Source of the DNA: a virus
Length of the DNA stretch: 42,080 bases
IMG/VR virus record: IMGVR_UViG_3300026118_000024
Coordinates: 1 to 42,080 of that record
Strand: one strand, 5' to 3'
The notes under the pieces were generated by a model, which saw only the letters and a list, made by a program, of their open reading frames with translations, was not told the origin of the DNA and did not search any database. The position numbers and the translations under genes were made by a program. Of the stretch, positions 29,219 to 42,080 are shown one piece after another; within the stretch, counting starts at the first letter, position 1; each line of letters opens with the position of its first letter.

Positions 29219-29219
29219 G

Positions 29220-29462
29220 TTAGTAAGCTGGCTCAGCCACCGGTTTGGCAGTTGGTGGGGCCGCCGGTTCCTCTACGGGCGCTGGCTCCGACTCTTCCCC
29301 TGCCGACTCATCGGTCACCTCCAATGCTTGAGCGACGTTACGATTTTCGCCTGCCCCGGTCTTTAATCTGATACTGACAGTGTATTCGGTATTATCGGCC
29401 CAGCCATCGATCAGCGCTTTGGTGTCTGGTTCTGTCATGTCAAATATGACTTGAGTAGGCAT
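29220..29462 (-). CDS. Small acidic protein upstream of portal
   Basis: The frame is open to 29507, beyond the terminase start on the other strand. An ATG at 29462 (MPTQVIFDMTEPDTK) gives an 80-residue protein that clears the terminase gene; an ATG at 29486 gives 88 residues. The product has a compact beta-containing half (DNTEYTVSIRLKTG) and an acidic Pro/Glu tail. Its stop is one base from the portal GTG start, so the two are coupled. It is the first gene of the minus-strand operon. The function is unknown. Confidence 0.55.
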   Translation of the reverse strand: MPTQVIFDMTEPDTKALIDGWADNTEYTVSIRLKTGAGENRNVAQALEVTDESAGEESEPAPVEEPAAPPTAKPVAEPAY

Positions 29463-29487
29463 AGTAAGAGCAAGACAACCATTAGCC

Positions 29488-31026
29488 ATGATTAAAGTAA
29501 ATGACAAAGGTTTTATCTACGAGCCAGGCGTGTGGCTGCCGTCGATGAACCTTAAGCAGTTAGAAATCTTCAACAACTATCACCGTTACCTGTTGGTACA
29601 CGGTCCACGTAAGAGCGGTAAAACCTTTGGGATCTTGCACAAGATTTTGCGGCACGCCTTTGACGTCAATGGCGCCATGATTGGCATCGTCACTAAGACC
29701 ATCAAGAACGCCAAGAGCGCGGGCGTGTGGGTGTTGCTGGGTAAGATGTTAGTTGAATGGGAGAAGGGCTGTTACGGCTTCAAGGTCACCGAGGGACCCA
29801 AGACGACCGGTGACTCCAAGATGAGCTTTGTGCGTATCCGCAATCGGCACGGATCGATCTCAGAGATCCAATGCCATTCCTTGGAACATTCCTCTGAAGT
29901 AGAGGCCAAGTTCAAAGGGCCGGCTTACTCCATGTTTTGGTTAAGTGAGTTCGACCAGTATTGCGATGATCATGCATTTAACATTTTCTGCGACGCGCTG
30001 CGCATGAGCCCGCAGGTGAGGTATGAGGAGCATCAGATCATCTGCGATTGTAACCCACCCGATAGCGGCACCAACAATTGGATCCACGACAAATGGTTTA
30101 AGTTTAAGGATAAACCAACGGAGGACGGTGAAGACGAATATTTCCGCGCCTGCCTGCACCGGATCTTAGTCATGATCGATGACAATCCTCAGCTTGATCC
30201 ACGGGAACGCAAGGAACTGGAGAGCCGCTACAGCAAACGTAAAAGTTTACGAGCCCGCTTCATCCTTGGTCTGTGGGAACAAGACATCACTGATGGCCAT
30301 TTCTCCGATGTATGGGATGAGGCGACACATGTGGTGGGGAAGGCCGATTGTCTGCCAGAGGATCGAGAAGTGATCGTGCCAACCAGCAACTGCACGGTGC
30401 TATTGGGTGGCTGGGATATGGGCGAAAGCAAAAACCACAGCTTCCACGTGATCGAGAAGATTATCACTGAAGACCCGGAGACTAAACGCAAGGTGGTGAG
30501 CTTTTCGATCGTCGATGAGTTAGTGGTGATTCGAACGTTCATCTCTATCCGCCAATTCGTGGAGGCGGTCATGGATAAGATCACGCACTGGAACGATTAT
30601 CATAAGAAGACTCACAAGATTGAGCTTAAATGGCGGCACTGGTCAGACACTAGCGCCTTCCGCGAACGGTCGGCAGCGGAGACGTCTGAGGCGGGCATCG
30701 CCTATGAGGCCAGTGACGGACAAATTGTATTGGAGCCAGCACCCAAATATCGAAACTCCAACCGGGACAAAGTGAAGTTAATCTGGGAATTGCTTTATCA
30801 GAAACGCTTGCACGTATCGGCGCAGTTGTTTAAGACCCGGGCTATGTTCGCCAATTTACGGAGCGGCACAGAAGCCGAATACATCAAGGAAGACGATCAT
30901 AAACATCCATTCGATTCCCTCTCTTATCCCATCATCGCGGAGGCGCCGATGGACATGTTGCGCACTACCCAGATCAACGCCGTTAAAAAACAATCCTCGC
31001 CGGGCCTAGTCCTGGCTAGCTTCTAA
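29488..31026 (+). CDS. terL: Terminase large subunit
   Basis: The 512-residue ATPase-nuclease powers DNA packaging through the portal. Walker A is GPRKSGKT at residues 39-46, Walker B MFWLSEFD at 149-156, and a CDCNPPDSGTNNWIHDKWF coupling segment follows near 187-205. The RNase-H-like nuclease shows GGWDMGES (D310), HWSDTSAF (D387) and DDHKHPFDSLSY (D470, D476), supplying the acidic residues that bind metal. Length is normal for the family. It is on the plus strand, divergent from portal with hardly any spacer, and its stop overlaps the next start (TAATG). No small terminase was recognised in the window. No Shine-Dalgarno site precedes the ATG. Confidence 0.95.
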   Translation: MIKVNDKGFIYEPGVWLPSMNLKQLEIFNNYHRYLLVHGPRKSGKTFGILHKILRHAFDVNGAMIGIVTKTIKNAKSAGVWVLLGKMLVEWEKGCYGFKVTEGPKTTGDSKMSFVRIRNRHGSISEIQCHSLEHSSEVEAKFKGPAYSMFWLSEFDQYCDDHAFNIFCDALRMSPQVRYEEHQIICDCNPPDSGTNNWIHDKWFKFKDKPTEDGEDEYFRACLHRILVMIDDNPQLDPRERKELESRYSKRKSLRARFILGLWEQDITDGHFSDVWDEATHVVGKADCLPEDREVIVPTSNCTVLLGGWDMGESKNHSFHVIEKIITEDPETKRKVVSFSIVDELVVIRTFISIRQFVEAVMDKITHWNDYHKKTHKIELKWRHWSDTSAFRERSAAETSEAGIAYEASDGQIVLEPAPKYRNSNRDKVKLIWELLYQKRLHVSAQLFKTRAMFANLRSGTEAEYIKEDDHKHPFDSLSYPIIAEAPMDMLRTTQINAVKKQSSPGLVLASF

Positions 31027-31958
31027 TGAACCTACTTTGTACCGGCGGCATGGGGTTCATTGGATCTCATTTTATCCGACACGCCATCAAAGAAGCGGAG
31101 CTTGTGCTCAATCTGGATCGGCTGACCTACGCAGCCAACCCTGATAATCTGAAGGACATCGCGGAGAACCCGAATTATCAATTCGTGCACATGGACGTCA
31201 ACGATCCGATGCTGCCCGATCTACTCACTCACCACCACATCACTCACGTTGTGCACTTGGCTGCTGAGAGTCACGTAGATCGATCGATTCACAACCCGGA
31301 TATCTTTGTCAGCTCCAACATCAACGGGACCCATAACCTGCTCAAGGCGATGATGACAGCCAAAGTTGGGAGGCTGCTCTACGTGTCGACTGATGAAGTG
31401 TATGGGTCGGTGACGCATGGATTTAGTAATGAGACTGCTCCACTGCGTCCATCCTCTCCGTACTCGGCCAGCAAGGCGGCTGGGGAGATGTTAGTGATGG
31501 CTTATCGGCGTACGTATGGGCTAGATGCAGTCATAACCCGCTCATCAAATAATTACGGCACCCATCAATATCCAGAGAAGCTGATCCCGGTCGTGATTCG
31601 CTCCATTAAGATGGCCAAACGCATCCCCGTTTACGGGAAAGGCAGCAATGTACGGGATTGGATGCATGTTAGTGACCATGTCCGGGCTCTTTGGGCGGCT
31701 TTAGTGCATGGCCGGGCAGGCAGTGTCTATAACATCAGCACGATGAAACTTTGCGCCAACATCGACCTGATTTACGGGTTATGTGACCTGATTGACCCAG
31801 TTAACCGGGCTTTGGTGCACTTTGTGAAGGATAGGGAAGGGCATGACACCCGTTACGCGCCTGATTCGACCAAGATCCGGGAGGAACTGGGCTGGTGCCC
31901 GCTTGAATCGATGGCTTCTGGACTTCCTGAAGTCATTAAGTGGTATATGAGCCGGTGA
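31026..31958 (+). CDS. dTDP-glucose 4,6-dehydratase-like sugar-nucleotide enzyme
   Basis: The 310-residue short-chain dehydrogenase has the NAD-binding TGGMGFIGS at residues 6-14 and the catalytic STDEVYG at 121-127; the Thr-Asp-Glu set marks 4,6-dehydratases rather than simple epimerases. It also has YSASK (Y146, K150), then RSSNNYGTHQYPEKLIP, which is characteristic of RmlB. It is slightly shorter than bacterial RmlB (about 350). The family converts a nucleotide-glucose to the 4-keto-6-deoxy sugar. The start overlaps the terminase stop (TAATG), so it is translationally coupled to packaging, an odd partner. With the next gene it would make a 6-deoxyhexose nucleotide, perhaps for the glycosyltransferase at 3305-4558. 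The exact sugar is unknown. Confidence 0.85.
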   Translation: MNLLCTGGMGFIGSHFIRHAIKEAELVLNLDRLTYAANPDNLKDIAENPNYQFVHMDVNDPMLPDLLTHHHITHVVHLAAESHVDRSIHNPDIFVSSNINGTHNLLKAMMTAKVGRLLYVSTDEVYGSVTHGFSNETAPLRPSSPYSASKAAGEMLVMAYRRTYGLDAVITRSSNNYGTHQYPEKLIPVVIRSIKMAKRIPVYGKGSNVRDWMHVSDHVRALWAALVHGRAGSVYNISTMKLCANIDLIYGLCDLIDPVNRALVHFVKDREGHDTRYAPDSTKIREELGWCPLESMASGLPEVIKWYMSR

Positions 31959-32887
31959 AAATCATTGTTTTGGGTACTGGCTACGTGGCCAGCGGCTATT
32001 TAGCAGCAGCCCACTCGCTGGGCTTGCGTCCAATCGTCCTTTCGCGTGATTGGAGCGACTACACCCGCGAAAGCAACCTCGATTGGGTCTTCGAAGGGGT
32101 TAAACCACAGCTGGTCATCAACGCGGCGGGCTATACGGGCCGGTCGGTGGACGATTGTGAGCGAAATAAGGAGGAATGTTACGCCGCCAACGTCACAGCA
32201 GTCCGGTTATTGGGTAAAATCTGTAAGAAATGGGATGTTTCCCTCATCCACGTGTCCAGCGGCTGCGTTTTTACCGGGCCCGGAGTCTTCACAGAGGAGG
32301 ATGAGCCCAATAATTACGGGCAATTCTATGCTCAGACCAAGATTGCAGCTGAAAATGAGCTGCACGACAGCGGTTGCAGGGCTTGGATCTACCGGATTCG
32401 GATGCCTTTTGATACCCGCAACCATCCGCGCAACTGGCTCTTCAAGCTTTTGCATCACAGGATGATTTTGGATGGCCTCAACAGTGTCACGTACCTCCAT
32501 GAATTTGCCATGCGTTCCCTGGAAATGGTCAAAGAACACAAAGGGCCACCGGGCATTTATCACGCCACCAATCGGGGAGCGTTACGGACGGTCGATGTGG
32601 TGGATTTGCTAATCCAGGCTGGGCTGCGGGATACTCCAGCGTTTTTGTGGGACAAGGAGGAGTTCGAAAAAGAGCACGTCCATCGCAGTGAAGCGGTGTT
32701 AGACAGCAGCAAATTCGAAGAGGCGTTCCGCACTCCATTCGGTGGGGCGCTAGGCTGGGTGCGTTGGGCCATCACCAACTGGCGTTGGAGCCAGCAGTAT
32801 GGGGATAATCCGCCTCAGTTTCGATTCGCCACGCAGAACTCTGAGCCTATCGAGAGATGGGTCCCCTGGCCGACTTCGCCTCGTTAA
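31955..32887 (+). CDS. RmlD-like NAD(P)-dependent sugar-nucleotide reductase
   Basis: The frame opens at 31940, but GTG at 31955 overlaps the upstream stop (GTGA) and places the Rossmann motif correctly (KIIVLGTGYVASGY). The 310-residue protein has INAAGYTGRSVDDCE, IHVSSGCVFTG and the catalytic YAQTK (Y125, K129), as in dTDP-4-dehydrorhamnose reductases and related extended short-chain dehydrogenases. It would reduce the 4-keto product of the preceding enzyme. The last 60 residues are Trp-rich (LGWVRWAITNWRWSQQY) and may bind a partner. It ends convergently with a minus-strand small gene, overlapping by 41 bases. No RmlA or RmlC is present, so precursors must come from the host. Confidence 0.8.
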   Translation: MKIIVLGTGYVASGYLAAAHSLGLRPIVLSRDWSDYTRESNLDWVFEGVKPQLVINAAGYTGRSVDDCERNKEECYAANVTAVRLLGKICKKWDVSLIHVSSGCVFTGPGVFTEEDEPNNYGQFYAQTKIAAENELHDSGCRAWIYRIRMPFDTRNHPRNWLFKLLHHRMILDGLNSVTYLHEFAMRSLEMVKEHKGPPGIYHATNRGALRTVDVVDLLIQAGLRDTPAFLWDKEEFEKEHVHRSEAVLDSSKFEEAFRTPFGGALGWVRWAITNWRWSQQYGDNPPQFRFATQNSEPIERWVPWPTSPR

Positions 32888-33044
32888 TGTAATCGTCGTA
32901 GGATTTACCTAACCTGGCTCGCAGCGCTTCCCAATCGGCTGCGGAGGGGTCGCCACGTTGGAGCAGGAGCCGAATCTCTTGGGTCAGTTGCGGGGCTAAA
33001 GCCAGAGCGGCTTGAATAATGGTGATGATGAGGGCGGGATTCAT
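32847..33044 (-). CDS. Small amphipathic protein downstream of a lipoprotein gene
   Basis: The 65-residue product starts with a hydrophobic helix (NPALIITIIQAALALAPQL) and continues with a charged helix. The helix is marginal as a membrane span because it has Pro and Gln but few strong hydrophobics at its end. Its start overlaps the stop of the putative lipoprotein gene (ATGA at 33044-33041). The pair may act at the envelope during lysis; this is inferred from their small size and membrane features only. Its 3-prime end overlaps the convergent RmlD-like gene. Confidence 0.55.
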   Translation of the reverse strand: MNPALIITIIQAALALAPQLTQEIRLLLQRGDPSAADWEALRARLGKSYDDYINEAKSARGPISR

Positions 33045-33406
33045 TTAGTAAACAGACGGATGATCGCCACCAAGTTGGATTGAGCTGAACTTGCCACATC
33101 GATGGCCACATCGAAGGCAGCGGTGTTGTTGGCGGTGGTGGCGATTTTGCCCGCATCGATAACGGCGTTCATGGCGGTGCGGTACCGGTTATAAGCCAGT
33201 CGCACTTGTGCTTCCCGATCGGCCGTGGCTTTGCCGGCTGCCACGTAAACAGCCCAGACCCGCATGGCGGAGTCGGCCGTGATGACGGTTGAGCCCACAC
33301 TTTTGTAGGTGGTGGCCTTCCAGGAGGAACAGGAAACCAGTGGGGTACTAATGAGCAGGGCACAAAGGAACCATCCCACCCAAAGTGGAGGCAATTTTCG
33401 GCGCAT
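33041..33406 (-). CDS. Putative small lipoprotein
   Basis: The 121-residue protein has an N-terminal leader with basic residues, a hydrophobic core (WFLCALLIS) and a lipobox-like TPLVSC ending at Cys26. The mature part is helical, Ala-rich and polar, without recognisable domain (AMRVWAVYVAAGKATADRE, ASSAQSNLVAIIRLF). Small outer-membrane lipoproteins in phages are often spanin subunits or superinfection-exclusion proteins. It overlaps the start of the next gene by four bases. A hairpin lies about a dozen bases before its start. Confidence 0.6.
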   Translation of the reverse strand: MRRKLPPLWVGWFLCALLISTPLVSCSSWKATTYKSVGSTVITADSAMRVWAVYVAAGKATADREAQVRLAYNRYRTAMNAVIDAGKIATTANNTAAFDVAIDVASSAQSNLVAIIRLFTK

Positions 33407-33790
33407 GTAGCGACCATCCGTAAATTTTCGGATTTACGCAAGCCTGTTGATCGGGCATCATCACACTAGCAGCCTGAGTTACGGTCCCGCGTGGTCGTAA
33501 GCCGTGAGTGCGAAAAGTGGCGTTGCGTAGCAGTCCCTCCCGGTGGCGCCCAGCCCATCGAGGCCGCCACTAAAACCACGGCCGCTGGGCAACTATTGAA
33601 AACGAAAGACAAACGGAAACGCACCTGGAACTACTACGGGCCCATCAGGACTTGGCCGGTTGGTTCGTGGAACAAGCGAAAGCGCCGTAGAGTGTTGCAT
33701 CGAGAGGTATCCTAGTCCATAAACAGCCATGAACTATACACCAGACCCTCGCGCCACTCTCAACGTCACTCCGTCACGTCGGTTTAACTG
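33407..33790. other. Intergenic region with hairpin 33419-33438
   Basis: This 384-base region separates divergent genes. CGTAAAT (33419-33425) and ATTTACG (33432-33438) form a 7-base-pair hairpin just upstream of the lipoprotein start, a possible operator or early transcript structure. A 74-codon plus-strand frame from GTG at 33491 encodes a very basic, Trp-containing peptide but has no ribosome binding site that convinces me. Promoters for both directions should lie here, but I could not single out strong -35/-10 pairs. Confidence 0.4.
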
Positions 33791-33796
33791 TTGTCC

Positions 33797-34240
33797 GTGA
33801 TATTAGCTGCCATCGGCAGTCGCAGCTTTGCCGATTACACGCTGCTCTGTGAGATTCTCGACAGTTACATGCCGGTGAGTCTGCTTATTAGCGGTGGGGC
33901 CAAAGGTGCCGACTATCTGGCCCACCGCTGGGCTGCCTCCAGAGAAGTGCCGGTGGCCATTTATCGGGCTGATTGGCACAACAACGGCAAACAGGCCGGA
34001 CTATTACGCAACGCCGTCATCGTGGAGAAAGCCGACCAGGTCGTGGCTTTCTGGGATGGCCTGTCCCGAGGCACCGCCGATACAATCAGCCGCGCCAAGA
34101 AAACCGGTAAACCTTTGCAGATCGTGCCCTTTGGTTATCTATTAAAACAACAGGCTTATGAACGACGACGAAAAGAAGAAACGGCAGCAAGAGGAGGAGG
34201 AAGAAGCCGAACGCAAACGGCGCCAAGAAGAGACGGCTAG
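33797..34240 (+). CDS. SLOG-superfamily protein (YspA/DUF2493-like)
   Basis: Two starts are possible, TTG 33791 or GTG 33797; the second gives 147 residues. Numbered from the TTG, the Rossmann-like SLOG core has GSRSF at 9-13, LISGGAKGADYLA at 32-44, LLRN at 71-74 and VVAFWDGLSRGT at 84-95, which are the nucleotide-binding loops of the family. SLOG proteins bind nucleotides or NAD-like ligands, and some act in defence signalling; phage copies are common but mostly uncharacterised. The C-terminal 35 residues are basic and overlap a different-frame small gene, so they may be constrained by that gene rather than functional. It heads a plus-strand run of small genes. Confidence 0.8.
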   Translation: MILAAIGSRSFADYTLLCEILDSYMPVSLLISGGAKGADYLAHRWAASREVPVAIYRADWHNNGKQAGLLRNAVIVEKADQVVAFWDGLSRGTADTISRAKKTGKPLQIVPFGYLLKQQAYERRRKEETAARGGGRSRTQTAPRRDG

Positions 34241-34274
34241 GCTCCTCCTGTTAATCTCTACGCTGAACAACTGA
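34158..34274 (+). CDS. Tiny charged coiled-coil peptide overlapping the SLOG gene
   Basis: An ATG at 34158 opens a 38-residue frame within the 3-prime end of the SLOG gene. The product is a Lys/Glu/Arg helix (MNDDEKKKRQQEEEEE and so on) ending in a short hydrophobic tail, LLLLISTLNN. The heptad-like charge pattern suggests a real peptide, since the alternative-frame SLOG tail over the same bases is low-complexity Arg/Gly/Thr. No clear ribosome binding site is seen, but it could be coupled to SLOG translation. Confidence 0.45.
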   Translation: MNDDEKKKRQQEEEEEAERKRRQEETARLLLLISTLNN

Positions 34275-34299
34275 CCCTTAGCAAGGCTTTGAGCGCGGC

Positions 34300-34431
34300 A
34301 TGGTGTGGCGGGAGATCCGCCAACGGGTATTCGCCTACCTATCGGCTCCGGACCTAATGAAACACCGCGCTCAATTCAACACAGCCCATGACAAACTTCC
34401 TCGCCGCGATCATCGTTACGCTAGTGACTAA
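34300..34431 (+). CDS. Small basic protein of unknown function
   Basis: A 43-residue frame from ATG 34300 encodes a basic, His/Arg-rich peptide (VWREIRQRVFAYLSAPDLM is its first helix). It fills the space between the tiny coiled-coil peptide and the next gene and overlaps that gene by 44 bases. Support is only tight packing and a plausible helical pattern. Confidence 0.35.
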   Translation: MVWREIRQRVFAYLSAPDLMKHRAQFNTAHDKLPRRDHRYASD

Positions 34432-34798
34432 CGTGGTGGAGAGCAGCAACGAATCGGGCTGCTCAACATGCGCTCAGTTGCGTCGTAATCCTTACCTTTT
34501 AATCTATCACCAAACTCACCCCTCGATAGATGGGGCTCCATTCAGGCCTGCTACGGAGCGGTATGAGATCATCACAGTCACACGAAACAGGCGCCTGGTG
34601 GCCAAAGAGCAGGACATCGATATACTGTTAAGCGCAGACGAGGTGTCCAGCGTGACCAAGATTAAACGGCTGGAAAGCAAATGGGTCGATTATGCGATTA
34701 GGACCAACTCTCCGGTCGTGATGACCAACCTCACGTGGACCAACATAACCAACCTCACCAATCTGTGGATCTTAACCAACGTCTGGATCTACAAATAG
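34388..34798 (+). CDS. Putative exported or membrane-anchored small protein
   Basis: The 136-residue protein has a hydrophobic N-terminal segment (TNFLAAIIVTLVTNVVES) that could be a signal peptide or anchor. After it comes a polar domain with two Cys (GCSTC) and, at the end, a Thr/Asn/Trp-rich stretch (TNLTWTNITNLTNLW) like the composition of the giant fibre. It may be an envelope-acting lysis or exclusion protein. It ends close to the convergent replication operon. No family is recognised. Confidence 0.55.
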   Translation: MTNFLAAIIVTLVTNVVESSNESGCSTCAQLRRNPYLLIYHQTHPSIDGAPFRPATERYEIITVTRNRRLVAKEQDIDILLSADEVSSVTKIKRLESKWVDYAIRTNSPVVMTNLTWTNITNLTNLWILTNVWIYK

Positions 34799-34824
34799 CG
34801 GACGGCCTCTATCAGGTCACTACT

Positions 34825-35385
34825 TCAACCATCTGCGCGGGCTTCTGCATCCAGCAAGGGCGGTTGATAGTTTGTGCTCCAATCTTGCGGAAGCGGATCA
34901 CATTTTGGGCTAGGCAACGGTTTTGTAGGAGAATCTCCCCGGCGGATACAGGCCAGCATCCGGGCCAAGTTACGGCGGTTAGCTTCTAGCTCATCACGGT
35001 TAGTGTGTGGATAGAGATCCCGCACTGGAGCGATGGCGCCCCGGCGCACCCCTTCCGACAATCCCGCTGCCCAACCACTATTCTTGTGAGGACGAGGCCG
35101 CTTGTTTTTACCATATTTAGCGTTGTCCCTAAATGCGGCTGCCTCCGCCTTGTCCAAAAACGCCAGCCAATCTTCCTCCACCCAGGCCGGACTGCTCTTG
35201 ACTGAAACTGGCCAGGCCGGGTCCAGCCGTTCCACCGGCTCAGACGCTTCATCGGGTGGTAGCCGGCCCCATTGGTTGGCCGCTGTGTGCCACCAAAACC
35301 GATGATAATCAGGATCCCCCCGCAGATACTGGCGCCGCCTATAAACCCACTCAATCGAATTGGGATGTTTACCCCGCCCACTCAT
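34825..35385 (-). CDS. Unknown protein at the end of the replication operon
   Basis: The open frame reaches 35406, but ATG at 35385 overlaps the stop of the helicase-loader gene (ATGA), giving 186 residues. The protein is rich in Trp, Arg and Pro. Its N-terminal IEWVYRRRQYLRGDPDYHRF and a central EEDWLAFLDKAEAAAFRDN helix suggest a nucleic-acid-binding protein. It has no recognised catalytic motif. As the last gene of the nuclease, initiator and loader operon it may be a replication accessory factor. Confidence 0.6.
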   Translation of the reverse strand: MSGRGKHPNSIEWVYRRRQYLRGDPDYHRFWWHTAANQWGRLPPDEASEPVERLDPAWPVSVKSSPAWVEEDWLAFLDKAEAAAFRDNAKYGKNKRPRPHKNSGWAAGLSEGVRRGAIAPVRDLYPHTNRDELEANRRNLARMLACIRRGDSPTKPLPSPKCDPLPQDWSTNYQPPLLDAEARADG

Positions 35386-35975
35386 GCGAATGGCCTCCAA
35401 TTGCATTCGATAATCCCCCCTGTCTGCTGGAGCCGGCTAAGCAGCGAATCACCCGTGCGTTTCAGCTGCTCCGTCGTCGCGTTAGTGATGAGAAGCGTGT
35501 CCGTCATATCCCCATACCGGCTGTTAATCAGCTCATACAGAAGCTGTTCCTCCCATTCTGTGCCTCTGGCTTTGGAGATCTCATCGATGACCAACAGCGG
35601 AAAATTCCGGTAAAACTTCATGATGTCCCCCTCCGATTTGTCGCTATCCCGTCGATATGTCGCCTTTATCGCCATCAAAAACCGCGTCAACGTCGTATAC
35701 CGAGCCGGCTTATCCCGGTCCGCCATCGTCCGAATCAGTTCCACCCCCATCTGCGTCTTGCCAATCGCCCTGTCCCCAGTCAGCAAGACAAGGAAGCCAG
35801 TGCCAATCCTAGCCTTTAGGGCCGCCAGACCCCTGTCCCACTCCGGAAAACCCCGCAGCGTGGCAGCCAGGTGCCTTAGCGGGGCGCCTGAGCCCTTCAT
35901 GTGGGCGTCCGGTCTTAACCGATTGAACATGTCCAGCTCTTCAGGCCTCAGGCTGTCTTGGGGGGATGGGTTCAT
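35382..35975 (-). CDS. DnaC-like helicase loader ATPase
   Basis: The frame opens at a TTG (36014), but ATG 35975 is preferred, giving 197 residues. Walker A is GDRAIGKT at 67-74, Walker B LLVIDE at 127-132, sensor 1 LLITNAT near 161-167 and the arginine finger SLLSRL at 178-182. This is the DnaC/IstB/DnaI AAA+ pattern. The N-terminal 45 residues would bind the replicative helicase. Such loaders place DnaB on DNA melted by an initiator; no phage DnaB is visible here, so the host helicase is probably used. It overlaps the initiator gene by 35 bases and the next gene by four. Confidence 0.85.
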   Translation of the reverse strand: MNPSPQDSLRPEELDMFNRLRPDAHMKGSGAPLRHLAATLRGFPEWDRGLAALKARIGTGFLVLLTGDRAIGKTQMGVELIRTMADRDKPARYTTLTRFLMAIKATYRRDSDKSEGDIMKFYRNFPLLVIDEISKARGTEWEEQLLYELINSRYGDMTDTLLITNATTEQLKRTGDSLLSRLQQTGGIIECNWRPFA

Positions 35976-36765
35976 AAGGTTTCTTTGGTTGGCCTTTCTT
36001 GGCAAATTCTTCAAACGTGATCAACGGCAATTCTAATCCCTCCCGCCTCTCTACAAAATGGCTCCCACTAGCCGCAGCTGGAGCATTCACCGGTTCATCC
36101 TTGGCCGCATAGTAATTATCGAACTTTTCCTTCCCAAATAACGTCGCTGGCCTCAAATACTTATCCATGTCCGTGCCCTTCCACCGCGCACACTGCCGTT
36201 CCACCATCAACAGCGCCCCCTCCCGACTGACGCCAGGCTCCTTAAGCCGTGCCGAGATGGTCGATAGATGGACATCAACAAGTCGATAGTTGCGCCCAGT
36301 TAAGCGGTTTATGGCATTCAATACCTCCACGGTGGCTGGGTGATATTTCCCAACCGGCACCTCCGGCGGCTCCTCCCCCTTCTCCTTGGCCCTTTTCCTG
36401 GCCGTATGCCGCGCCACCCTCGCCGCTGTGTCCGCCCGCGTCCGTAACTTGTCATACTCAGCCCAATTCACGATCCTCCACCCCCAGTCCCGATGATCAT
36501 CCAATCTCACTATCCGCCGCCCTTCGAATTCTGCATTCCTGCTCGACGGATCCGGCGCCTCTAGCTTCTCAATCGCCCTGTTCAAATTCTCCAGCGGCAT
36601 GTTGAACTTCCGCGCTAATGCACTCCGCGTTATGTCCACTATCCCACCATGCTCCCCTATCGTGCATACCTTCAGGAAATCCTCGAAAACATGCCTAGCC
36701 TCAAAATCCTCCGCAATCGACGAATCCAGGATCTGCGTGAACACCCGGGCGTATAGCTGACTCAT
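35941..36765 (-). CDS. DnaD-like phage replication initiator
   Basis: ATG 36765 overlaps the stop of the GIY-YIG gene (ATGA) and gives 274 residues. The N-terminal 100 residues look like a winged helix (ITRSALARKFNMPLENLNRAIEKL). A Lys/Arg-rich linker follows (about 112-135). The C-terminal VEVLNAINRLTGRNYRL and DMDKYLRPATLFGKEKFDNYY match the conserved phage replication domain found with DnaD-type proteins. This domain set binds origin DNA and recruits the helicase loader, encoded next. The tail is Pro-rich. The origin may lie inside this gene or in the 37.1-37.5 kb gap; clear iterons were not seen. Confidence 0.8.
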   Translation of the reverse strand: MSQLYARVFTQILDSSIAEDFEARHVFEDFLKVCTIGEHGGIVDITRSALARKFNMPLENLNRAIEKLEAPDPSSRNAEFEGRRIVRLDDHRDWGWRIVNWAEYDKLRTRADTAARVARHTARKRAKEKGEEPPEVPVGKYHPATVEVLNAINRLTGRNYRLVDVHLSTISARLKEPGVSREGALLMVERQCARWKGTDMDKYLRPATLFGKEKFDNYYAAKDEPVNAPAAASGSHFVERREGLELPLITFEEFAKKGQPKKPYEPIPPRQPEA

Positions 36766-37130
36766 TTGCAATAGTTCGGGTTGAAGGCCTTGTTGAAAAT
36801 CGGGGCGTATTTCCTGATAAGCATGCGCTCAAGCCTAACGTAATGCTCTGTGCGCCAAACGTATAAAAGACACCCCAGGTGCGCGGCCGGCATGTCCACA
36901 TACCATTCTATACAGCCTCCTAACTTCCAACCCTTACCTCGCCCATCATGCTGATCCACATAACGTTGCATGATTCTGTCCAGAAGCCGCTTCGATGCCC
37001 CTATGTACAGCCACTCGAACTCGTCGCTGTAACAGCCGTAACATCCAGGAACATTCCGGATGCCGCTCCACAATAGCTCGTTCCGATTCTCGTAGGCTGG
37101 TAGCTCTAGCTTGATCTGTGGCTGAAACAT
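36762..37130 (-). CDS. GIY-YIG nuclease
   Basis: The open frame extends to a TTG at 37166, but ATG 37130 begins the plausible 122-residue protein. PGCYGCYSDEFEW carries the GIY-like element, LYIGAS at 41-46 the YIG element, R52 the conserved Arg, E101 the metal-binding Glu and YAPIFN the final Asn region. The canonical first Tyr-containing motif is altered (GCY), which may change activity. It could be a mobile endonuclease, but it is co-directional and coupled (ATGA) with the replication initiator, so it may act in replication or host DNA breakdown. Confidence 0.8.
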   Translation of the reverse strand: MFQPQIKLELPAYENRNELLWSGIRNVPGCYGCYSDEFEWLYIGASKRLLDRIMQRYVDQHDGRGKGWKLGGCIEWYVDMPAAHLGCLLYVWRTEHYVRLERMLIRKYAPIFNKAFNPNYCK

Positions 37131-37550
37131 CTCGCTCAGAATGACCCCGCCCACTTGCTCAGTCAAGCATTTCGATAACGGTTGCTAACGCTCACTAACG
37201 CAAGCTCACGAAACCCTAACACGCTACAGTGGGTCTGATTCTGGGTCTGGATCTGTGTCTTAGGATAGGGATTGTTAAGGGAAAGGAGCAATCCAGCCAG
37301 TCCAGGCCAGAGCCAGTCACAGACTGGGTCTAATGGTGGAAAAGCCACTCCTGCGGACAGCTCCCAACCCATCCTGGTTACATACAATTTGGCCAGAGTA
37401 GAGAAGGCGATCCTATACATGGTTCCGCGACCCCCCGGCGGGCCCCCGGCTCCCCCCACTGGGTCGGCATGCGAACTGCTCAGGCTCAACGGTTTGCGCA
37501 AGCTATCGGTTGGCCAGTCGATTGCAGGCTAGTGGTGTGCTCTGCCGTTT
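37131..37550. other. Intergenic region upstream of the structured RNA
   Basis: No convincing gene is present. A 112-codon minus-strand frame (37163-37501) has Gly/Pro-rich and repetitive Thr/Gln/Asn sequence with no phage-like pattern, and an opposing frame is just as open. The region includes a GC-rich patch near 37425-37460 and a simple pattern of TCTGGGTCTGG units near 37232-37256. It separates the leftward replication operon from the rightward RNA locus, so divergent promoters and possibly the origin are expected here. Confidence 0.4.
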
Positions 37551-37839
37551 CCCTAGCGAAGGGATTTCCCGCTGTAGCTGGCGGCAGACCAGCGAAACTA
37601 GGTATAACTAAAAAGCATACCTGAACGAAAGCGGAGACTCTGAAACGGGCACGATTTATGCTTACACAGCTTAAGCCATACCAATCGACTATACCTAGTT
37701 TGTATACTGCCCAGTAGGAGGGGGATTAGACACAGCTTGTCCTAGCGTGTGTAGATCCTACACTATCTCATTTCACCCCCGTAAACACAGGGTATCTTCG
37801 CTATTGACTGTTGAGGTAGACTCAACGACAATGCCTGTC

Positions 37840-37906
37840 GACGGTGAGTTCAGTCTCTGCCAGCCTCTGGCATCCTGGACTCGGGGAATAGGCTCCTATG
37901 ACCGTC
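37840..37906 (+). other. Three-tier nested hairpin inside the structured RNA
   Basis: GACGGT (37840-37845) pairs with ACCGTC (37901-37906). Inside it GAGTTCAG (37846-37853) pairs with CTGGACTC (37875-37882, one G-U), and inside that TGCCAG (37858-37863) pairs with CTGGCA (37867-37872). Twenty base pairs in a 67-base segment is far more than expected by chance and anchors the RNA interpretation. Confidence 0.75.
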
Positions 37907-38261
37907 AGCGACCTTTGACAAACTTCAATGCTGGAAACAACGCGAGCATAAACCTCGCCTCACCTTTAGATTGCCTACCATAGCAATCGGGATGATAGAA
38001 CCAGATCGGACTTCGGCCCTTTCAGCGGCCAGCCTCCGCTCAGTCGATTCACGTCGGGACTGCGAAAGCTTCAACACCCAGGTGAAACGGCGCACACGCG
38101 AAACGAGACACTCTGGCGACACTTCCCCAGCGGAACATCGGTGAAGCATCACGGTTTGCCCGGTGAAGCTTAACGGCCTGCAAAAGGCCTGTATTCACAC
38201 TTGGTTAAAGGAACGGGAGGAACGTTCCTGCGAGCGAATAGACTCAGCATGTCAAATAGCA

Positions 38262-39029
38262 GTGTGCTCCTTTGTCCTTCTGGACAAGGCACTTGCGGAG
38301 AACACTCCTTAGTGCAAGGCACTTGATCTAGCTTTAGCAGGCTAGGTTTCCGGTCAAACCGTGTTTGACTGGGGGATGGGGATCGGAATAGGCACGTGAA
38401 GCGAGGCGAATTGCCTTAAGCTTTCCACGTGATAGATCCCGTGTTCTAGGCTGGGCCGTGACAGTGGGGACAAAAGGGAAACATGAAAATCAGTACCAAA
38501 CGGATCGTTGTCTTCCATGCCAAGATCGCGACCATGATCAAGGCTGCCGGGTATGACGTTCAGCAAGCGGAGCTGGCTTGCCAGTCCGCTGCCAATGACG
38601 TGCAAGGCAAGGAGAAGGATCCGAAGCTTGGTGACGTGAAAAAGAAGGCGCAGGGGAAGGAAGTGGGCTGGCGCGAGCAGACCACGGTGGAGTTTTCGGG
38701 GAAAACCTGTACTCCGCTGGACTTCCTTTCCTGGCATGACGCGCAACAGCGCGTATTCACGGATCACGGCGAGCCGAAGGGGGATCTGTCCATCGGTCTC
38801 ATGCCTGACATCTTGGTCTTTTGGTTGGACGGGATGAAAACCCGGAAGGCCAGCAAGGCGGAGAAGGACAAGGCGGAGGCTCAGGTTGCCTTGCAGGCGA
38901 CGCGGGAGCAGTTGGCAGCGAATGGTCCGAAACGGGCCAACAAACCCGCCGGTGAGCCTGCCAAGGCCTAAGGCTAGGCTTATACGCACTGTCCCTCCGT
39001 AGGTTATACGGGGGGACAAAGGAGCACAC
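38262..39029 (+). repeat. Perfect 16-base inverted repeat bracketing the internal gene
   Basis: GTGTGCTCCTTTGTCC at 38262-38277 is the exact complement of GGACAAAGGAGCACAC at 39014-39029; two G-U pairs and a G-C extend it to 19 (38262-38280 with 39011-39029). The arms enclose the 162-residue reading frame. Each arm can also fold locally: TTGTCC/GGACAA at 38272-38287, and the 10-base-pair hairpin 38991-39017. Confidence 0.85.
38483..38971 (+). CDS. Lys-rich protein encoded inside the structured RNA
   Basis: The 162-residue frame starts at ATG 38483, six bases after AAGGG. The product is basic and mostly helical: STKRIVVFHAKIATMIKAAG, then a Lys/Glu-rich linker, a compact middle with PLDFLSWHDAQQRVF and a Met/Pro/Trp segment (GLMPDILVFWLDGMK), and an Ala/Lys-rich tail. 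The composition suits RNA or DNA binding. A longer frame exists on the opposite strand (38354-39052), but it reads through flanking hairpins and looks like a shadow. Placement between two paired RNA halves suggests that the gene is an insert in a loop of the RNA, or that the RNA is its regulatory or partner element. I do not recognise the family. Confidence 0.6.
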   Translation: MKISTKRIVVFHAKIATMIKAAGYDVQQAELACQSAANDVQGKEKDPKLGDVKKKAQGKEVGWREQTTVEFSGKTCTPLDFLSWHDAQQRVFTDHGEPKGDLSIGLMPDILVFWLDGMKTRKASKAEKDKAEAQVALQATREQLAANGPKRANKPAGEPAKA

Positions 39030-39206
39030 AGCGAAAAGACAAAACTACACAACGGAGAAAGCTTGCCTCTTACCCTGTTAAACTCAGGGAATTCAATCGT
39101 GATAGGGCAAGGGAGTACACGAAAACAGCGCGGTCACGGCCCAGACAAACGGGCGCGCATAATCGGTTACGGGTTGTGTGGTAGGCAGGACAACCGCCTG
39201 TAGTAT

Positions 39207-39351
39207 CTGACGGTTGGATTGTACGGCCCCTAAGAATGAGATACCGTGGGGGAATACAGAGGATTGATAGACTTAGGCAGGATCAAGGAGTCGTCACGGG
39301 TGAAAGCCCAGATACTGGCTCCCTGTTACCGCTGACGGTTGGCTTGAACGG
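39207..39351 (+). repeat. Twice-repeated 20-base motif in the right half of the structured RNA
   Basis: CTGACGGTTGGATTGTACGG at 39207-39226 recurs as CTGACGGTTGGCTTGAACGG at 39332-39351, 18 of 20 identical, 125 bases apart. No coding frame explains the similarity. It could be a repeated structural module or protein-binding site. Confidence 0.7.
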
Positions 39352-39723
39352 TCGTTAGCCGCGACCTACGTAGGGCCCCAGCCGCCTTAGGGCGAGCTCA
39401 CGTTGGCTAAGATGACTGCTTTTGGAGGCTTCGCAGAGGGGCCTAGCTATGAATTTTTCGGTGTCCTATCAGCGTTGAAAGGCTGGTGGGTTTTGCCAGG
39501 ACAGACGGGGCTCGCAGTCCAGGGAGCGACGGAGCTAGCGTCAAGGATGGGCTGGCATGGAAAGCGGAGAGCATATCAATCAGGCACGCTGCCCGGCGAC
39601 GGGGCTAAGAAGTCATGCCGACAGGATGACACGAGTAGATCGCCAAGAGGAGAGTATACTACCCTAGCAATGGTGAAGGGTCACAACGGGTGGACTGTGA
39701 ATAGGTCGAATTAGCAGTACAGC

Positions 39724-39773
39724 GGGGCATGCGCTTTGCCACACCGACAATTGCGCATGCCCCTTTTAATTTC
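39724..39773 (+). terminator. Intrinsic terminator of the structured RNA
   Basis: GGGGCATGCGC (39724-39734) pairs perfectly with GCGCATGCCCC (39753-39763) and is followed at once by TTTTAATTTC. The loop is 18 bases. This is a canonical Rho-independent terminator on the plus strand and marks the RNA 3-prime end near 39770. Confidence 0.88.
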
Positions 39774-39857
39774 TTAGGCGGTGATAGTGGTAAGATGCTG
39801 GTCCCCCCCTCCATTCGAGCCAGTGTCAGCCGCTATTCACCGCCTTTTGTTTTTCCA

Positions 39858-40088
39858 ATGAACGAACAATACCGGCGGCGCTTGGAATCGGGCAGTGAAC
39901 AGATACGCATGGCTAAGATTAAGACGGGACGGGCTATCGCGGCCCAGTTAACGGAGGTACGTGATCAATTGACGGTAGCCAAGATGCTAGGCATCAGCCG
40001 GCAGAGCGTAGATTTTGTGGAGGCAGGCGCACTGAGTAAGATCAGGGCCCGTCTCCTCAATACACAAACCACAAACCAAAGGGAATAG
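39858..40088 (+). CDS. Small HTH DNA-binding protein
   Basis: The open frame begins at 39729 inside the terminator, so the ATG at 39858 is the likely start, giving 76 residues. The second half has a helix-turn-helix pattern (LTEVRDQLTVAKMLGISRQS, continuing VDFVEAGAL) resembling region 4 of sigma factors or small phage repressors. It is the first gene after the RNA terminator and leads the plus-strand block of small genes, so it may regulate them. No clear ribosome binding site is seen. Confidence 0.6.
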   Translation: MNEQYRRRLESGSEQIRMAKIKTGRAIAAQLTEVRDQLTVAKMLGISRQSVDFVEAGALSKIRARLLNTQTTNQRE

Positions 40089-40089
40089 C

Positions 40090-40287
40090 ATGAAAACAGT
40101 CCACGGCAGTCCGTTTAAGATGGACTGGAAGGACCTAGCAGAGGTGAAGCGGTATGCCGATGCGCTGGGCAAAGGGTGCGTCGTGTTCAAGCATCCGGAC
40201 CGGGATAACTACAACATCACGTTTCGGACGATGTTCGATCGCAGGCGCTACGCTGATCAGGGCTGTGTGATCGTGCACGAGCCATAG
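40090..40287 (+). CDS. Small protein of unknown function
   Basis: The 65-residue protein begins one base after the previous stop, with AAAGGGA nine bases upstream. It looks like a small alpha/beta fold: a helix DLAEVKRYADALGKG, then strands CVVFKHP and YNITFRTMF. It contains two Cys. No family is recognised; packing and the ribosome binding site support the gene. Confidence 0.65.
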   Translation: MKTVHGSPFKMDWKDLAEVKRYADALGKGCVVFKHPDRDNYNITFRTMFDRRRYADQGCVIVHEP

Positions 40288-40290
40288 GTT

Positions 40291-40491
40291 ATGACGCGAC
40301 GCGAATTCGCCATCAATGTTATGCGCAAAGGTGGCTCCAGTGAGGAGACGATCCAAAAGACACTGGAGATCTTTATCAGCATCTCACCGCAATCCAGCAT
40401 AGTATTTTTCGACACTGAGATGACTGATGAGCGCGAGAAAGAATTGGTGCGGCGCATGTTCGCGCTGCCCTTTAACCCAGAGAAGAACTAA
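40291..40491 (+). CDS. Small protein of unknown function
   Basis: The 66-residue product begins MTRREFAINVMRKGG, followed by a helix and a strand-like IVFFDTEM segment and a charged end. The opening Arg-Arg is not followed by a hydrophobic leader, so it is not a Tat signal. The stop overlaps the next start (TAATG at 40489-40493). Confidence 0.6.
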   Translation: MTRREFAINVMRKGGSSEETIQKTLEIFISISPQSSIVFFDTEMTDEREKELVRRMFALPFNPEKN

Positions 40492-40697
40492 TGAAACGCG
40501 AAGCACGCTACGTCGTGATCAAGTTTATCGACGGGGATAGGTCGTCGATTGACGTGTGGCAGGTGCGGCTGAAGGTGGACAACCAAAGTTTCAACGTAGG
40601 CCCGGACTACGACACCAAAGCAGAAGCGGTATGGCTGAGGCGCCGGTTAATCGAGGCATTGCACACGATGGTGGGTGAGATAACAGGAAAGGAATAA
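40491..40697 (+). CDS. Small protein of unknown function
   Basis: The 68-residue product has a beta-hairpin-like first half (ARYVVIKFIDGDRSSIDVWQ) and a helical second half (AEAVWLRRRLIEALHTMVG). It is coupled to both neighbours: its start overlaps the previous stop, and its own stop abuts the next ATG. No family is recognised. Confidence 0.6.
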   Translation: MKREARYVVIKFIDGDRSSIDVWQVRLKVDNQSFNVGPDYDTKAEAVWLRRRLIEALHTMVGEITGKE

Positions 40698-40991
40698 ATG
40701 AACCGAAGATCATTCATAACCAAGACGGCGCTAGCTACGGCGGCGGCGCCATTACTGCCTGGGGCGCTGGCGAAGGTGCCTGAGCCAGTGCCAGTGGTAC
40801 CAGTGCGGACGGGCTGGCGCTGTGAGTGGAGACGCGGGGTCGACAGGTTCAATGTCATTGAGACCCAGTCCACGGCGGAGGTGCTGCAATTCTTAAATGA
40901 GCATCCGCTGGGCGTGATGAAGATGTGGTACAACGATAGGCTGGTATACGATCGCCAAAGTTGGAGGGTATTGAAGGAGGACAATGATTAA
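40698..40991 (+). CDS. Small protein with twin-arginine (Tat) leader
   Basis: The 97-residue protein opens NRRSFITKTALATAAAPLLPG, a good Tat signal: Arg-Arg followed by Ser-Phe-Ile, a mild hydrophobic core and an ALA cleavage-like site near residue 25. The mature 70 residues contain TGWRCEWRRGVDRF and a helix-strand end. AGGAAAGGA lies four bases before the ATG. The protein at 41217-41501 has the same architecture (Tat leader, W-R-x-x-W motif, small domain), so they are paralogues. A phage protein exported folded through Tat is unusual. It may act in the periplasm on lysis, exclusion or envelope modification. Confidence 0.7.
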   Translation: MNRRSFITKTALATAAAPLLPGALAKVPEPVPVVPVRTGWRCEWRRGVDRFNVIETQSTAEVLQFLNEHPLGVMKMWYNDRLVYDRQSWRVLKEDND

Positions 40992-41220
40992 ACTCATCGT
41001 TAAGGCAGAAGAAATCCCCAGGCCGGATGGGAAGGGTAAGGATTTCTCCGTTGAACTGTACTGCGAGCCGGCCCAGCTAGAGCCGCACGTGACATCGATG
41101 GAGACTAAGTTTATCAGCATAATCAAGCAGGCGGTGGTGGAGTCGATGCGTGAGCTTGGCCAACAGACGGTGGCGGATGGCAATGCACGTAGCTTTTACG
41201 AAAGAGAGGATGAAGCATGA
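40984..41220 (+). CDS. Small acidic protein of unknown function
   Basis: The 78-residue product overlaps the end of the preceding gene by eight bases and has GGAGG five bases before its ATG. It has a beta-rich start (MIKLIVKAEEIP) and a long helix (ETKFISIIKQAVVESMREL). It lies between the two Tat-leader genes, which suggests a shared function, but it has no leader itself. Confidence 0.65.
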   Translation: MIKLIVKAEEIPRPDGKGKDFSVELYCEPAQLEPHVTSMETKFISIIKQAVVESMRELGQQTVADGNARSFYEREDEA

Positions 41221-41501
41221 ACAGACGCGATGCGATCAAAGCCACGCTTGGTGCGCTGGCTTTCCCCTATGAGGTGCTAACGGGCGGGCCAGACACCGAC
41301 CTGCCAGTGCTAAGCCAGTGGTTGCAGTCCCCGTCAACAACCGACAGGTGGCGGGTGGATTGGGAGCTGAACACGAATTGGCTAGCTCCCAATGCGTATG
41401 CCGTCAATCCACTGCGTGGCAGCGCCACGTTCAAGAATTTCAAAGACGCCTACGAGTTTGGGGTTGGACTGTTATCGGTCTTTCCCCGTGCCCCTGTATA
41501 G
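41217..41501 (+). CDS. Second small protein with Tat-like leader
   Basis: The 94-residue protein begins MNRRDAIKATLGALAFP, a leader of the NRRDAIK type common in Planctomycetes and Verrucomicrobia. The hydrophobic core is short. The mature part has RWRVDWELN, matching the WRCEW motif of the protein at 40698-40991, and ends with a helix and a hydrophobic segment. Its ATG overlaps the previous stop (ATGA), and GAGAGGA lies upstream. The two Tat-leader proteins probably arose by duplication. Confidence 0.65.
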   Translation: MNRRDAIKATLGALAFPYEVLTGGPDTDLPVLSQWLQSPSTTDRWRVDWELNTNWLAPNAYAVNPLRGSATFKNFKDAYEFGVGLLSVFPRAPV

Positions 41502-41521
41502 CATGGCTCGGCGGGCGGGCC

Positions 41522-41593
41522 ATGGCTAGCGGTTCCTATTCCCACCGTAAGGGGCACGGTTACTATTTCGGTTACACTGATGAGAGGAGGTGA
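41522..41593 (+). CDS. Possible 23-residue leader peptide
   Basis: ATG 41522 opens a 23-codon frame rich in Tyr, Gly and His (ASGSYSHRKGHGYYFGYTD) whose stop overlaps the Shine-Dalgarno region of the next gene. It could be a leader peptide that couples translation, or chance. Confidence 0.25.
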   Translation: MASGSYSHRKGHGYYFGYTDERR

Positions 41594-41599
41594 ATGACT

Positions 41600-41980
41600 A
41601 TGGGAATGGACGTATACGGAAAGAGCGGCAATTACTTCCGGGCCAATGTATGGTCGTGGCGCCCGATTCACGTGCTGTGCTACGACCTGAACCAGAAGTA
41701 TGCACTCAACCTAGACCTATCCGGATGGTCGATGAACGACGGAGCTGGCTTACACAATCAGGCCGACTGCGATGCACTGGCTGATGCCATTGAGGCGCAT
41801 GTTGCGGACGGGCCAGAGGAATACACCGCTGATTGCGGCATGTATTGCGACGCGCAGACCGGGCGGTTTGTGCCAGCGGGAACTGAGGGGGCCAAGACGG
41901 CGCACTACACAGACAAAGAGCACGTGTTGGAGTTTGCTAAGTTCCTACGGGAATGCGGCGGCAGTTTTGAGATCTGTTAA
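41600..41980 (+). CDS. Conserved-looking small protein beginning MGMDVYGK
   Basis: The ATG at 41600 is nine bases after AGGAGG and is preferred to the ATG at 41594, which is too close. The 126-residue protein opens MGMDVYGKSGNYFRANVWSWRPIH, which I recall as the start of a widespread phage and bacterial family of unknown function (this is memory, not a search). Three Cys lie in the C-terminal half (ADCGMYCDAQTG) and one at the end, perhaps a metal site. A C-terminal helix DKEHVLEFAKFLRECGG is present. Confidence 0.7.
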   Translation: MGMDVYGKSGNYFRANVWSWRPIHVLCYDLNQKYALNLDLSGWSMNDGAGLHNQADCDALADAIEAHVADGPEEYTADCGMYCDAQTGRFVPAGTEGAKTAHYTDKEHVLEFAKFLRECGGSFEIC

Positions 41981-41997
41981 CAACCCTTTTCTGTCCG

Positions 41998-42080
41998 GTG
42001 CTGTGCGCCGATCAGCCGAAACGCATCTGCATCTCCTATGGCAAATCATCCGTGCGCAAGGAAATCGTGGCCCTGATGCG
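41998..42080 (+). CDS. Possible start of a gene running off the right edge
   Basis: From a GTG at 41998 the frame stays open to the window edge and encodes a segment with PKRICISYGKSSVRKEIV, which looks like a basic nucleic-acid-binding protein. The nearest in-frame stop is at 41968-41970. No good ribosome binding site is seen, so the start and the gene itself are uncertain. Confidence 0.3.
   Translation, partial: MLCADQPKRICISYGKSSVRKEIVALM

Follow-up and report, generated by a model that had tools for sequence, protein, structure and literature searches.

A folded RNA of roughly 2.3 kb, with a protein gene enclosed within it, is carried by a group of uncultured bacterial viruses from soil. 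Judged from comparisons between the viral sequences, this is a real and new class of RNA, and an unusually large one. In the DNA examined here, an IMG/VR virus record of 42,080 bases (hereafter, the window), the structured RNA occupies positions 37,421-39,767 of the + strand, about 2.35 kb. The architecture that we can demonstrate directly consists of two domains, the 5′ one variable and the 3′ one conserved, joined by a 20-bp helix, with the gene closed into the loop. That such an RNA exists is near certain; its function is inferred, and there are no transcript or protein data. Its parts, in window coordinates, are the following.

37391-37420, + strand: conserved box GGCCAGAGTAGAGAAGG + CCTATACAT, the presumed promoter or start signal (role inferred)
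37421-38261, + strand: 5′ structured domain, variable and modular, with a G+C-rich C-tract element at its start (consensus folding; frameshifting indels, no codon phase)
38262-38282, + strand: strand Y, the 5′ side of the long-range helix around the ORF; pairs with 39009-39029
38283-38482, + strand: structured ORF leader inside the loop closed by Y:X′Z (lowest z of the 5′ half)
38483-38971, + strand: embedded protein gene, 162 aa, pI 9.3, of unknown family (homologues; third-position bias; no frameshift)
38991-39017, + strand: hairpin X:X′, which starts 19 nt past the stop codon; X′ (39007-39017) is also part of the long-range helix
39009-39029, + strand: strand X′Z, the 3′ strand of the long-range helix (pairing with Y)
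39030-39720, + strand: 3′ structured domain, the better conserved half (77% identical to locus L008; consensus folding in two separate clusters)
39694-39718, + strand: P4 hairpin of 7 bp with a conserved UAUGUCGAA-type loop (UAGGUCGAA in the window); 7/7 pairs double-changed
39724-39767, + strand: Rho-independent-type terminator GGGGCATGCGC...GCGCATGCCCC TTTT (from sequence)

Carriers, extent and ends of the RNA

A search with the ORF product (P0001) returned three near-identical contigs, and further relatives of the phage were recovered via terminase searches. The ORF and the flanking structure were both found in the loci L004, L008, L009, L014, L018, L016 and L056 (the same as L054). The RNA and its gene occupy the same genome position in six more divergent viruses, to which one partial and one decayed copy can be added; the copy in L013 is truncated by the contig end. 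In all loci the RNA lies downstream of a replication initiator gene that is divergently oriented, and the fold is retained among relatives even where the letters have fully changed. The decayed copy, at about 10000-12560 in L049 (= L050), still has the box upstream, strand Y and some of the 5′ half, which is split by inserted sequence; its ORF is broken after 17 codons and its 3′ half is absent. Going by this loss of the ORF and the 3′ half, the system is dispensable at least there.

Beyond this group the searches were negative. DNA and protein searches of phage GenBank, covering 50,697 phage records, gave no relative, nor did a search of bacterial GTDB genomes with the ORF alignment. A terminase alignment run against bacterial genomes turned up one phage-like contig, with a terminase identity of 41%, in which an HMM search found no relative of the ORF. 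Scans with DNA patterns (GGRRRCAAAGGAGCACAC, the AGTAGAGAA box and AAAGCGGRAG..CACGCTG) returned known members and chance matches only.

Positions 28483-42080 of the window are ~100% identical to L002/L003, contigs of 80.5 kb and 17.4 kb from two other samples. Since the virus is thus also present in an 80.5-kb contig, the 42-kb window may be part of a larger genome. The replication initiator and helicase loader genes adjoin the RNA. Another adjoining gene (36762-37166, − strand) has a product that looks by eye like a GIY-YIG nuclease (EWLYIGAS) and has no Pfam match, and in L009 an HNH-like ORF comes after the RNA, at about 18700. Directly 3′ of the terminase gene, at 31026-32887 of the window, lie two genes for nucleotide-sugar epimerases/reductases, of the GDP_Man_Dehyd and RmlD families; the second of them is present in many relatives.

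An earlier note on this DNA, made by eye, had placed an RNA at 37551-39773, ending in a terminator, next to replication genes and larger than most known classes. The location is as described, and the size, roughly 2.3 kb, is above that of the known giant phage RNAs checked. A large RNA does lie between those bounds, but its start is probably nearer 37,421, just past the conserved AGTAGAGAA box, than 37,551, and its 3′ end is at about 39,767. The terminator was also correctly recognised, as a hairpin and T-run at 39,724-39,767 with equivalents in L008, L014, L018 and L056; an automatic scan had not listed it because its loop is above the 8-base limit of that scan.

The presumed start signal is well conserved. 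The motif AGTAGAGAA.G is invariant in 8 loci and lies 0.9-1.1 kb upstream of the ORF in every intact copy. About six to eight bases past the box most loci have a TAT-rich stretch, which is GC-rich in L016, and the box does not match the sigma-70 consensus. With the box taken as the start, the RNA measures 2.0-2.9 kb across loci (L016 reaches the contig end).

At the other end, every pair in the stem of the P4 hairpin varies with compensation. The stem is ACUG/CAGU in the window, UCUGCA/UGCAGA in L009, GCUGGCA/UGCCAGC in L056, CGCA(c)GUC/GACUGCG in L014 and CGCA(c)GGG/CCCUGCG in L018. The covariation score is 1.295, versus 0.264 in shuffles, and 92.9% of cells are paired, versus 43% in shuffles; for this count one bulged base was taken out of four sequences. 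Directly after P4 comes a G+C-rich hairpin with a T-run in the window, L008, L014, L018 and L056, the stem sequences of which are unrelated. A possible second long-range pairing, of the 5′ domain with the P4 region (38149-38162 with 39687-39700), can be drawn in the window and was not seen in other loci.

Helices and domains around an embedded gene

The two halves of the RNA are held together by the long-range helix. When the loci were searched without bias for the best helix between positions separated by 300-1600 nt, Y:X′Z ranked first in all eight intact ones. All 139 cells of its 20 bp are paired across 7 distinct sequences, and 10 of the 20 pairs show compensatory double changes. In 500 shuffles the covariation score was never matched, and slid registers are only 48-67% paired. 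The letters themselves differ greatly, as the strands of the window (GTGTGCTCCTTTGTCC), L014 (GTGGGCTCTTCTCTTCCCC) and L056 (GCGCTTTCAATTCCTTCCCC) illustrate. That said, the register was set by hand and L014 was given one N per strand. Seventeen of the 139 cells are G-U and none is A-C. As a G-U pair would be an A-C mismatch on the other strand, this argues that the + strand RNA is under selection, and neither the DNA nor the other strand, which is consistent with the direction of the ORF and the terminator. The arms of the helix are about 750 nt apart with the coding gene between them. A covarying helix that joins both halves across the ORF makes this one RNA, and so excludes the two adjacent RNAs that the earlier note had considered.

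Part of the same helix has a second partner. The lower 8 bp of the X:X′ hairpin are paired in 55/55 cells of the same 7 sequences, with five double-changed pairs, and X:X′ and Y:X′Z are mutually exclusive over about 7-8 bp. Their energies lie within a few kcal/mol of each other in all seven sequences, and the predicted minimum is a mixed, branch-migrated junction of X, X′ and Y. This three-strand arrangement, a strand-exchange junction with both alternative pairings conserved, is observed directly. Its role as a switch is our inference; the two pairings could instead be coaxial parts of one junction. A possible second strand exchange can be made out in the window at 37595-37606, 37617-37622 and 37690-37701. 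The sequence AAACUAGGUAUA also has two pairing options, AUACCU locally or UAUACCUAGUUU distally.

The gene in the loop is clearly coding. Its products in 8 other loci are 23-97% identical to P0001, and all nine are basic (pI 9.0-9.6). The ORF has no frameshifting indel and, between the window and L008, a third-position excess of 86/163 versus 46 and 35. Among relatives the flanks have many indels that are not divisible by three, and substitution rates there are equal in the three phases. These patterns of indels and phase imply that the ORF is coding and the flanks are not. We found no match for the ORF products in Pfam, PHROG or PDB; the AlphaFold2 model of the 162-aa protein is poor (pLDDT 62.7), and Foldseek found no fold match with it. 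We infer that the protein binds RNA on the basis of its charge and genetic linkage alone, without protein data. As far as sequence comparison can tell, structure and gene are both under selection.

Folding of single sequences is a less powerful guide. Compared with dinucleotide shuffles, the 5′ half (37,541-38,482) has a z-score of -6.3 and the 3′ half (38,972-39,770) one of -2.1; in 150-nt windows the mean z is -1.0 (5′) and -0.65 (3′), versus -0.16 elsewhere in the window. The lowest scores of the 5′ half, -3.1 and -4.2, fall in the leader region at 38226-38450, and the leader motifs CACTTGATCT and CGGAATAG are common to the window, L008 and L009. With raw thermodynamics only moderately unusual, stems picked out by eye are weak evidence on their own, and the comparative tests are decisive. 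For these, consensus folding was compared with column shuffles in cluster-wise alignments, with terminase as a coding control. The 3′ half gave z-scores of -6.9 (window/L008) and -5.7 (L014/L018), and parts of the 5′ domain gave -5.4 (window/L004), -4.9 (L056/L049), -3.9 (L014/L018/L013) and -2.7 (L004/L009), while the terminase control gave +1.3. The ORF itself scored -3.2, which may reflect a structured ORF or an effect of the simpler shuffle. A MAFFT alignment of the 3′ domain places L009 wrongly in P1.

The two domains differ in conservation. The 3′ half can be aligned to L008 and L009 at 70-77% identity, whereas the 5′ half mostly cannot. Outside the 5′ domain, L004 and the window are about 98% identical; within that domain a module of 160 nt (L004, about 9465-9628) has been swapped and is 75% similar to L009, implying that RNA domains are exchanged between phages. 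A 26-nt stretch of the window that includes the hairpin AGGTATAACTAAAAAGCATACCT recurs in L016 (10423-10448) at 96% identity, in different surroundings. Extra small ORFs occur at different points of the RNA in L008 (20180-20395), L009 (17291-17482 and 17619-17828) and L016 (11890-12069); the product of the first in L009 has the look of a zinc ribbon by eye (CASC, CPRC).

The earlier note rested on stems flanking a single reading frame and had judged the flanks to hold no protein gene. The stems are present, with comparative folding and covariation as the decisive tests of them, the frame inside the RNA is coding by its third-position bias and absence of frameshifts, and the frameshifting indels and lack of phase bias agree that the flanks are not. 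A lack of covarying base pairs in homologues would have refuted the proposal; such pairs are found in the long-range helix (10/20), in X:X′ (five) and in P4 (7/7).

Known RNA classes and rival explanations

Rfam covariance models gave no match to window positions 37150-39900 at the gathering threshold nor at E<=5, and none to seven related loci at the gathering threshold nor at E<=1. Membership of GOLLD, ROOL, OLE or HEARO was rejected, there being no covariance-model match in the window or the related loci. Weak Rfam matches to c4-a1b1 and M23, on the minus strand and under the gathering scores, were treated as chance. A tRNA and tmRNA search of the window found none. In the literature we found no description of such an RNA, although subscription journals and preprints lay mostly outside our coverage. 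The earlier note had hesitated between a new class and a distant relative of GOLLD, ROOL, HEARO, OLE or introns. The covariance-model searches lend no support to a relationship, and a new class is upheld, as a single large structured phage RNA with an ORF that is absent from Rfam.

Comparison with these classes is still instructive. GOLLD has a variable 5′ region, a conserved 3′ region and a linker inside the cage, sometimes with tRNAs, and ROOL has two regions around a linker (PMC12286853). Like GOLLD, the RNA described here is a large ornate phage RNA, and it meets the layout of variable 5′ region, linker (the ORF) and conserved 3′ region. It differs in its size (2.0-2.9 kb versus about 0.8 kb), in having as its linker a conserved protein gene that a covarying helix of 20 bp closes off, and in lacking nearby tRNA genes and a covariance-model match. 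With ROOL it shares a large ornate form and two regions around a linker, but it is several times larger, holds a protein gene and has no model match. HEARO (HNH endonuclease-associated RNA and ORF) is likewise a structured RNA genetically linked to an ORF, the protein of which needs the RNA; here, however, the ORF lies inside the RNA and does not encode an HNH/IscB/IsrB nuclease, and the HEARO model does not match. Group II introns carry an ORF in a peripheral loop and its protein binds the RNA, so that a basic protein encoded in the loop of a structured RNA makes them a working analogy; the RNA of the window has no domain V or intron model match, exons, reverse transcriptase or maturase, and has its own terminator. 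OLE too is large and ornate and has small proteins as dedicated partners, the genes of which are not known to be embedded in the RNA, and its model match is absent. By analogy, our RNA may work like a group II intron ribonucleoprotein or like GOLLD, while membership in either fails.

Four other explanations have to be weighed. The whole could be an mRNA with structured untranslated regions of great length, 5′ and 3′, that only control the 162-aa protein in cis, through its translation or stability, with no separate RNA function. The ORF is under clear protein selection and is the sole feature bracketed by the long-range helix, and X:X′ begins 19 nt past the stop codon, all of which would suit such control. 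Nevertheless, 1.06 kb plus 0.8 kb of conserved structure goes far beyond the needs of a translation switch, the structure that is conserved best (the 3′ domain and P4) lies hundreds of nucleotides 3′ of the ORF, and L008, L009 and L016 carry their extra small ORFs at different points yet keep the helices. We regard cis-regulation alone as unlikely, if well worth keeping in mind. The same extra ORFs resemble variable linker content, as might be expected if the 5′ and 3′ domains formed an oligomeric shell like those of GOLLD, a 14-mer cage, and ROOL, with the linker (the protein gene) inside and the RNA's own mRNA or protein enclosed. Such a cage is suggested only by the layout, which is as in GOLLD, where the linker is inside the cage and can carry tRNAs (PMC12286853). 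As the RNA resembles neither GOLLD nor ROOL in sequence or by covariance model, and the window has no tRNA genes, we consider the cage improbable.

Much less credence can be given to the remaining two. The adjoining replication initiator and helicase loader genes might point to a DNA-level element, such as an origin, packaging or recombination site, with palindromes that act in the DNA. This is very improbable given that the G-U cells of the long-range helix, and the lack of A-C cells, point to the + strand RNA; moreover, the arms stand far apart around a coding gene, and P4 ends at the terminator. A self-splicing intron with an internal ORF, or a mobile ribozyme of a related kind, would also place structured RNA around an ORF, and the 5′ GUGUGC at 37535-37540 looks by eye like a group II start. 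We find this hardly credible: no group I, group II or other intron model matches the window or six relatives, the ORF has no match to reverse transcriptase, maturase or homing endonuclease families, and there is no exon gene on either side of an RNA that has its own terminator and a fixed genome position in all loci.

Proposed mechanism and significance

Our preferred explanation is that the phage makes one + strand transcript of about 2.35 kb with two roles, as an ornate structural RNA, or scaffold, and as the mRNA for the basic protein that partners it. We hold it tentatively, with slightly more doubt than conviction. Under this dual-role explanation, transcription would start at the AGTAGAGAA box, and the local X:X′ hairpin would form first, during transcription and translation of the gene. 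Strand Z could then serve as a toehold for Y, which would displace X by branch migration, and the 5′ and 3′ domains would be zipped together once the gene had been transcribed and read. The mRNA and the assembled scaffold would be alternative or successive states of the molecule. The basic protein is presumed to bind its own encoding RNA in cis, and the product would be a phage ribonucleoprotein used early in infection.

A bolder version, which we think rather unlikely as it stands, is that this new natural class of giant structural RNA and mRNA uses the three-strand junction to couple translation to closure of the scaffold, and that it builds, from RNA alone or with protein, a compartment enclosing the message or the protein that it encodes.

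The giant phage RNAs GOLLD and ROOL are widespread and cage-forming, and to our knowledge they have no known function. The RNA of the window is about three times larger and gives what they lack: a candidate partner protein to which it is genetically linked, and a switch that can be tested. It is a direct experimental handle on the role of giant phage RNAs during infection, and it suggests that an mRNA and a large structural RNA can combine in one natural molecule outside introns.
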